From positions 1,239,501-1,303,500 of the forward strand of contig NC_090794.1 of the NCBI RefSeq assembly GCF_040054535.1: DNA of 64,000 nucleotides, given 5' to 3'. The position numbers and the translations under genes were made by a program. Below are positions 54,301-57,300 of the stretch, piece by piece. Every line of letters begins with the position of its first letter. Positions within the stretch are counted from its first letter, which is position 1. The notes beneath the pieces are model-generated. The model was given only the letters and a program-made list of their open reading frames with translations, searched no databases and was not told the DNA's origin. The stretch comes from Antennarius striatus. Its lineage: Eukaryota > Chordata > Actinopteri > Lophiiformes > Antennariidae.

Positions 54301-57300
54301 GGTTGCAACCAATCGATCCAGCATAAGAAGTTAATTTCTGTGTATTATTATGTACAATTGTTATAAATAGTTTAAATGTTAATTATCACATTAATAATAT
54401 ATTAATTTCTGCTCCTAAATCCTTCACACTGGATGTTTAAAAGCCCTGAAATAAAAAATGTGAGATGAGAGGCCAAGGTTTGTTTTTTTAAAATGAAAAA
54501 AGGAAAAAATACTTTGATTAAAGAACCGTTTGCGAAAGCAAAATGTTATTTTGACAGAATAAAAGGAAAGGTAAGATTTATTTAGGGGAATCAATGAATA
54601 ATTAAAAAAAAATGTTTTTAAAAAAATTTAAATATTTGATGGAATATAAGGACATTTTTAAAAAGTATTGAAAACATTTGATTAACATAATCAAAGGAAC
54701 AAATGTTAATCATAAATAATGCAGATTAATCAAGCAAAATAGAAAAAATTATTTGGACAAAAAAATTTAAAAACTGAGATTCTAGTTGGATCCAATTAAA
54801 GAAAAATAATTATTAGAGAAAAGTAGAAACGAGAAAATTGTAGTTTTATTCAAAGAATTTTAGGAAAAACTTTGACTCGCACAAATATCACGACTGATCA
54901 ACAAGTGGTTTGATCCAGACCCCGCTCAGGATTTTAAACATGCTGTTGTCAGAACAAGCTAGGTTCACGTGCCGGATGGAGGGGAGGTGGGGTGAGACAG
55001 GACAGGGTAGGGGGGGACTGTCGTACGAGCCATGCGATGGAATCGTGTGTTTACCCCCTGACATAGATGTCAGACATCTTCTCTCCTGTCATGAAAGCAT
55101 CGTCCTCTAGAATTACGTCATCAGTGTTCCAAATAACAACACGAAGCTCAAAGCTAGACGCCGCCACAGCGTCGGGCGGAGGAGAGGGAGAGGACGACAG
55201 ACAGACAGGAGGAGAGAGAGAGACGACAGACAGACAGACAGACAGACAGGAGACACGCCACGAACACCACAAAAAAACGCACACAGAAAAAATGGAAACA
55301 AAACAAAAAAAATAATGGTTAACGGCAACGGAAAGTCCACACACAGCTCACACCACGGGACCCGGCCGGGCCGTCCCGCCGTACCTACCCCCTGACAAAT
55401 ATGTCACTGGACTTTTCCCCAGTGAAGTAATCATCGTCCTCCAGTATAACTTCGTCTGTATTCCAAATTATCACCCTGAGCTCATATCTGGTAATGGGAG
55501 GGGACACACACACACAGTTGGACTCATATTTGGAATCAAACGGACCTCACTACTGAGACAGACTCACCGTCTTTGGACCTGGGGGGTGGGGGTGGAAACA
55601 CTCACTCTTGTTAGTCTTGATTTCTCATATTTGTAAAGATAATGTCATCCGTTCCGTGACTTACCTCTTTGGTTTCCGTGGCGATATGTCGATGGCCGGT
55701 CCAGGAGCAGGGATGTCCATGGGGAACATGTCCACCCACATCTCGATCCGGCCCTACGAACGCAAAGAGACGACGGTTCAAGACTGTTTCCGTCGCCGTG
55801 GGCGAGGTCACACGGACGGAGGAGGGTCTTTCCCACCTGCTCAATCCCGGGTTTGTCGGGGTTCAGCAGGGGTCGGGTCTCCACGTGTTCCGGGACCAGC
55901 TTGCAGCCCAGCCTGGGGATCTCCTCCCAGTGGTTGAGCACCGTCAGAGCCAGGTGCTCCTCCGTCTGCTTCTTCAGGCCTGGGGAGACAACAAAAACAA
56001 CTCCCGATTTCAAGTAGGGAGAAGACTGGGTAGGTTCGATTGACTCTTGGAGCCAACCAACCAATCAGAGCTAGCAACACCCGTACCGTTTTCATCCTCG
56101 ATCTCCGTAGGTCCCAGGAAGATTCGATTGGCCACCTTCACTTTGCCTCCAGGTCCGTAATGAGGTCCATCAATTTTGCCGTCCTTGCAGAGTTTGGCCA
56201 GGATCTGACTTGGTTTCAGGGGGTCTCGCCAAACGTTGTACCCGTGACTGAAGCAGGAGACCACAGATGGGTAAAGACAAAGCAACTGACATCGATTGAT
56301 CACAATCAATCGAGACTCTCACACAGAGTAGTTGGATGAAATCCCGCAGGTGGCTCTGTATTTGCTGTAGAAACGGTTCTCCAGGTCGATCTTGGTCTCT
56401 CCGATCAGGTCGTCGGTCCCGACCAGGTCCCAGTCGTACACGGACACCGTCAGCATGGACTCCATGGGGAAGGTGGCCTCAATGTCGAACGACCTGACCA
56501 CAGACGGAAAGGACGAAAGGAGTGAGTCAAGACGAGACAGACTGGAAATAAAAGAAGATTTTTCCCTTGACGTACTTCCCAAATACAGGATTGAGCTGTT
56601 TGGAGATGTAGTTCTCCTTGTCCTTAACTTCGGACCTTCCCAGCTTGATGACAATGTATGGATCGGCCTTTCCGTTGATGTCAGCGGGATGGAGGTCTGT
56701 AGCCTGATGCAAGAAGAGCAAAATTAGGAAAAGTATGACGTATCGAGACGAGGTACTCCGGTATTCTCTTGTTTGCCTTCAGATTGAAACCATCGCTCAC
56801 CCGGACTACGTAGACCCGGACCAGGACGTTGATGGGATCGTTGTGCGGAATGCTCTGGAACATACCCATGTTGGGATCGAATCCCGCCTCCCTGGTGATC
56901 TCCTCGGACAGAGGTAGCTTGTACATGCATAAGGATCCCTGGGGTCACACCACGAAACATGTTTAGGCTATTCGGTTCCTGCTTGGTACATCGGGAATAG
57001 ACTCGTTTCCGCTCGACGCTCCGAACCTTGAATCTTCCGACGATCCTGTCGTCGTCCAGGGCGTGCTCGTCGTCGTCGCCGGCCTTCCCCCTGTACAGGT
57101 TGAACGTGTGCAGCCAGTCCTCAAAGTTTCCGTACTCGCTCTCCAGCTCCTTGTTGTACACCTGCAAATCATCGACTATGTGGTTTGACCCCGGTTACCC
57201 ATCATCCCGCAGTCGTACCCGCCATCCTTCCCACTCACCAGCAGCTCGTCCACTTTGGCTTTGAGCGGCCGTCTGTCGGCGCCGTCGGCAGCAGCTAGAC

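Follow-up and report, generated by a model that had tools for sequence, protein, structure and literature searches.

A tandem pair of 99-nt exons for a calcium loop of otoferlin, probably spliced as alternatives in a fish

One loop, two exons in the otoferlin gene

Hair-cell synapses are believed to rely on otoferlin as their calcium sensor of release. In mice, according to the otoferlin structure paper, changes to the calcium ligands of the last C2 domain of otoferlin abolish exocytosis and cause deafness (PMC12526402). A stretch of fish DNA of 64,000 nucleotides (hereafter the window) holds the 3' part of an otoferlin gene on its minus strand, which ends in two alternative last exons. Further upstream in this gene, two adjacent exons of equal length, A and B, appear to encode the same segment of the last C2 domain. 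Does the gene offer splicing two versions of one calcium loop, or is the second version something else: a decaying leftover, an addition to the domain, or a piece of another gene? The features on which the answer depends are these.

55665..55753, minus strand: common upstream exon with 3' end KPK+AG; its donor GTAAGT scores 7.8, top of the 25 donors listed
55487..55389, minus strand: exon A, 99 nt, 32 residues plus split codons, the form present in the solved otoferlin chain
55388..55154, minus strand: intron between A and B, 235 nt
55156..55346, minus strand: AG-free zone upstream of the exon B acceptor, 191 nt, including a 72-nt TGTC/TCTC array (55178-55249)
55318..55322, minus strand: TTAAC, candidate branch point and sole yUnAy match in the intron
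55153..55055, minus strand: exon B, 99 nt, 32 residues plus split codons, the second version
53119..53360, minus strand: common downstream exon, starting with G and then TGGCTGAAGGGG (WLKGQQ...); 3' edge set by donor score
51955..52131, minus strand: last exon no. 1 (membrane anchor), ending ...YLVKKILGA, homologous to last exon no. 2
51151..51327, minus strand: last exon no. 2 (membrane anchor), ending ...YLVKKLLGA, homologous to last exon no. 1

Exons A and B are each preceded by AG (..ATTACCAG at A, ..GGCGTCTAG at B) and followed by GT (donors GTAGGT at A and GTAAAC at B), with phase and split codons alike. Both accept the KPK+AG phase of the upstream exon (55665) and both pass GG to the G of WLKGQQ (53360); at 99 nt each, they keep the reading frame when included together and when both are left out. 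Bases are identical at 70 of 99 positions (71 of 99 in one comparison) and residues at 25 of 34, leaving nine that differ, and the significant match stops at both exon edges. With A as the tblastn query against the 64-kb window, B was matched at E 2e-15, and the B peptide matched A in the whole genome at E 5e-11, while the search for a third copy in the window returned weak matches only (E 0.59 and above). The initial annotation had described two 99-nt, same-phase exons 235 bp apart with their own splice sites, both joining KPK+AG to WLKGQQ and descended from a tandem duplication; the coordinates, the AG and GT dinucleotides, the fit of the split codons, and the match confined to the exon limits all agree with that description.

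The identity of the gene as otoferlin is given by the solved otoferlin, which is the best PDB match of both the A and the B version. The Pfam C2 family was matched in both versions, and Ferlin_C scored 27.1 on the sequence piece submitted, just below its cut-off of 29.4. The two last exons for the membrane anchor fit the family as well. The 34-residue A and B peptides alone matched no Pfam family, and Rfam gave 0 matches at the gathering score for the whole window.

Some further features of the window lie near this locus or elsewhere in it. In the intron upstream of A, an 11-nt stretch on the minus strand, GTCCAAAGACG (55568-55578), flanked by CCCCCCAG and GTGAGT, looks microexon-like by eye and, if used, would shift the frame ahead of A or B. 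The 1.7-kb intron after exon B contains a dinucleotide array at 53588-53675 (TG on the plus strand, 44 copies). Downstream of otoferlin lies a protein-kinase gene (42480-46268, minus strand; Pfam Pkinase at 44504-44848, E 2e-9), and a 276-codon open frame at 42480-43307, with repeats at 57-residue spacing, has no Pfam match at E 0.01. On the plus strand, 29915-30601 covers part of an OSTM1-like gene (Pfam OSTMP1, E 5e-13).

With their neighbours, A and B align without gaps to the solved otoferlin chain PDB 9qe2 (six further entries), the sole otoferlin among the five PDB sequences matched, which is A-type. For 9qe2 we assumed the mouse protein of PMC12526402, given the fit of the residue numbering: 20 of 20 residue labels tried from that paper fall into place under one offset, with D1767 and D1772 being one residue in two numberings and so not independent among the 20. 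On this alignment, the segment encoded by A or B is loop 1 of the last C2 domain, now named C2G. The initial annotation had assigned the exons to C2F; the location stands, and the name becomes C2G in the seven-C2 naming of PMC12526402, in which the C2F of earlier papers is called C2G.

The same paper gives E1742, D1743 and D1754 as the calcium ligands of C2G loop 1 and counts F1746 and F1747 among the aromatic residues that insert into the membrane or lie near it. All three loop-1 ligands are kept in both A and B. At the loop tip (mouse positions 1745-1747), A reads D-Y-F and B reads A-F-M; position 1752 is Ser in A and Met in B, and position 1756 is Phe in A and Tyr in B. Different loop 1 chemistry, as first proposed for the two versions, holds for the membrane tip and one acidic residue and fails for the three calcium ligands, which are the same. 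The sum of hydrophobicity over the loop tip was computed as a possible argument and discarded, the A/B difference being too small. An exchange of A for B would be predicted from these residues to keep the loop 1 calcium cage of C2G and alter its membrane tip, and it should change the strength or speed of C2G membrane docking at the hair-cell synapse more than calcium binding, in a direction that we do not predict.

Coding constraint and splice signals of exon B

The 29 base differences between A and B split 5, 6 and 18 over codon positions 1, 2 and 3, giving 14 silent and nine residue changes across 33 codons. dN is 0.20-0.21, and dS is saturated at 1.3 (LWL85), 2.1 (NG86) or 7.4 (ML). Random placement of all A/B differences never came out as mild as the observed pair in 100,000 draws, nor in a repeat with 50,000 each way; this null also frees A and is generous for that reason. 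Judged by these counts, the coding constraint on A and B, averaged over the history of the pair, is strong. An old death of B is unlikely: a copy decaying from the time of an old duplication should have fared worse. Letting B alone decay gave P 0.007 at 0.29 changes per site, a branch that is half the lower bound derived from seven of nine differing fourfold sites, and 0 of 20,000 draws at 0.45.

A recent death is another matter. Exon B might be an old alternative exon that recently fell out of use in this species and is now decaying, a reading that we consider unlikely though the most serious of those competing with alternative splicing. A short dead period fits the intact frame, as B decaying alone gave P 0.64 and 0.32 at neutral divergences of 0.10 and 0.15. 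The second otoferlin gene of this genome, on contig C17, differs from B at nine of 34 residues versus four of 34 for A. Polarised by that gene and with saturated silent sites dropped, the B branch carries six silent and ten replacement changes (p 0.11), where random single changes are expected to split 59 silent to 238, stops included. This outcome speaks against any strong statement of constraint on B by itself. The splice sites of B are weak as well: among 27 acceptors listed, its proximal acceptor has the lowest score, and its donor is third lowest of 25. The sites ranked were hand-picked among scored in-frame candidates, in some cases in preference to the top-scoring one. Anchored exons number 29, of which 27 are in the acceptor list and two enter only the comparison of AG-free zones; four have no donor listed (the two last exons and two without a positive score). 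Weak sites fit a decaying exon, but an exon served by a distant branch point would likewise show a weak proximal acceptor, and B has kept its frame, its AG and GT and all three calcium ligands of loop 1.

The sequence ahead of B resembles that of exons with distant branch points. At 191 nt, the AG-free zone of B exceeds those of the 26 further acceptors listed, whose median is 36.5, and it is still the longest of 29 when the two added exons are counted (25 or 66 nt, and 111 nt). AG-to-AG gaps that long number five of 3619 on the whole strand, B's included. None of 20,000 random 191-nt stretches with the dinucleotides of the gene was AG-free, while at the intron's own base composition the chance of such a stretch is about 0.07. 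TTAAC lies 70 nt from the A donor and 166 nt from the B acceptor, with T-rich tracts after it. The array at 55178-55249, in the pyrimidine tract ahead of B, consists of 13 copies of the 4-nt unit TGTC/TCTC and also of two copies of 29 nt. Fish may differ in the length of this array, which could influence splicing.

An AG-free zone of at least 100 nt before the acceptor is taken as a mark of the distant-branch-point type, and B has 191 nt; that 72 nt of these are the repeat array weakens the likeness. According to PMC1431707, alternative splicing is more frequent among human exons with AG-free zones of at least 100 nt. Steric exclusion as in OGDH and alpha-tropomyosin would further call for a branch point no more than about 50 nt from the 5' splice site upstream, whereas the only yUnAy match here, itself a candidate, is 70 nt off. 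The steric exclusion limit quoted for OGDH is about 50 nt (PMC7969005). Since 70 nt exceeds this limit and double inclusion stays in frame, mutual exclusion of A and B, if it exists, is more likely to be regulated than sterically enforced.

These same distances bear on a transcript that includes both exons and would encode a C2G with a doubled first strand-loop-strand. The frame is kept at 99 nt each, and splicing of the 235-nt intron should be feasible, its candidate branch point lying 70 nt from the donor. Against this, A and B each align full-length to one and the same otoferlin stretch, so that both together should break the C2 fold, and we regard use of the double form in some transcripts as improbable.

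We consider it probable, with good confidence, that A and B arose long ago by tandem duplication of one exon in a single otoferlin gene of this fish and are spliced as alternatives, with A as the default and B regulated. From what can be read in the sequence, splicing would pick one of the two. Exon A would be the default, with a sequence like that of the solved otoferlin and ordinary splice sites, and B would be regulated through a weak acceptor after a long AG-free pyrimidine tract and a probable distant branch point. The products would be two otoferlins with the same loop 1 calcium cage of C2G and a different membrane tip. The homologous pair of last exons already present in this gene, and the listing of human OTOF with 'Homologous substitution' (PMC9579139), speak for B as an alternative exon. 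For that last-exon pair the counting methods give a dS of only 0.28-0.30 and ML gives 22, which makes dS a poor clock in this gene.

Ferlin relatives and the origin of exon B

How old is the pair, and did B arise from A? The genome (548 Mb, 42 contigs) was searched, with only the best candidates scored. Among these, the B peptide had eight matches at E 10 or better. Two of them are A and B themselves and the other six are single exons on six further contigs, so that the exon is doubled in one of the seven ferlin genes found among the best candidates scored. The second otoferlin gene, which is 91% alike in the next exon, has a single loop-1 exon of the A type, and in the 3.8 kb around it a search for a B-like relic gave weak matches only (for B, E 2.0 and above). 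This gene ends in three homologous tandem last exons for the membrane anchor (at 18846584, 18847626 and 18849469 of contig C17), all of them with an acceptor AG and a frame that stays open until a stop; the gene of the window has two. When contigs of other kinds were scanned in search of stray fish DNA with the peptide of the downstream exon, 37 pattern matches in prokaryote genome contigs and three in viral contigs were returned, none of which was confirmed.

The silent sites between A and the second otoferlin gene are likewise saturated. On that basis the A/B duplication appears to be ancient, possibly of the same age as the two otoferlin genes, with the reservation that silent sites are a poor clock here.

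Individual residues give a further view. Exon B shares the D of DDV with four of the five other ferlin genes (the one on contig C21 has E) and the Y of IYV with all five, where A, the second otoferlin gene and the solved otoferlin have E and F. The M of GEKMSD in B is common to three type I genes and absent from the two nearer ones (contigs C12 and C5), which favours a change in B or a reversal. In the protein tree (33-34 columns), A, the second otoferlin gene and the solved otoferlin group without B at 86/85, not starred, and a constraint joining A with B was not rejected (p-AU 0.24). This tree leaves out the first column; with it, for which the first letters of C12 and C5 were assumed, the values are 85/91 and p-AU 0.25. 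The tree of DNA codon positions 1+2 also places A with the second gene (74/82), with p-AU 0.093 for A+B.

Part of this pattern might be produced if B were a copy from another ferlin gene and not a duplicate of A. It has the M and Y of GEKMSDIYV, as in dysferlin and myoferlin chains, and the protein tree sets it outside the otoferlin group just described. Nevertheless, B matches A at 71 of 99 bases and the six ferlin exons found on other contigs at fewer (57-67 of 96-99), and neither tree rejects A+B, which leaves import from another ferlin gene as a very remote prospect.

For a tandem duplication of A, the trees and shared residues together lean to an event before the split of fish and mammals, with mammals losing B later, on too few columns for proof. 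A bolder version, which we put forward only tentatively, takes B for a second calcium-loop exon that vertebrate otoferlin already had before fish and mammals split, that mammals and the other otoferlin gene of this fish have since lost, and that certain types of hair cell, photoreceptor or neuron would switch on. One gene would then yield two release sensors by cell type, with C2G differing in its membrane tip.

Significance and comparison with known systems

Judged on genomic sequence, A and B most probably form a genuine pair of alternative exons that would adjust the membrane tip of C2G. If so, this fish may make two forms of the sensor from one otoferlin gene, and the natural swap, with ligands kept and tip altered, would be a ready-made experiment on the question of which part of the loop controls the speed and sensitivity of release. 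It would also show whether sensory cells tune their sensor by splicing.

The initial annotation knew of no duplicated exon at this place in otoferlin, and our literature search agrees: among the matches listed, mostly titles and abstract starts, none reported a doubled exon in otoferlin C2G. In the human gene, alternative splicing is named for exons 6, 31 and 47 in PMC7768390, and a sturgeon otoferlin variant described in PMC13069148 omits exons 6-10, another place than A/B.

Tandem-duplicated homologous exon pairs spliced as substitutions are known in vertebrates, and the human catalogue of PMC9741552 keeps 80.6% of predicted ligand residues. In those pairs, as in A and B, homologous exons of the same length and phase lie side by side, with ligand residues mostly kept and others changed. 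The catalogued pairs differ in being spliced pairs, whereas A and B are known from genomic sequence, and OTOF is absent from the main text of that paper. In the accounts of PMC7969005 and PMC1431707, OGDH exons 4a/4b and alpha-tropomyosin exon 3 share with A/B a short intron, a long AG-free zone, a T-rich tract after a distant branch point (here a candidate one) and a calcium-related protein. Unlike in that type, the candidate branch point of A/B is 70 nt, and not less than 50 nt, from the 5' splice site, and the AG-free zone is in part a TGTC repeat. Also comparable are exon 47 and the alternative cochlear end of human OTOF, which are alternative last exons (PMC7768390): the gene and the kind of event are the same, with the membrane anchor altered there and not a calcium loop. 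The kind of event is well known, and this instance in otoferlin appears to be new.
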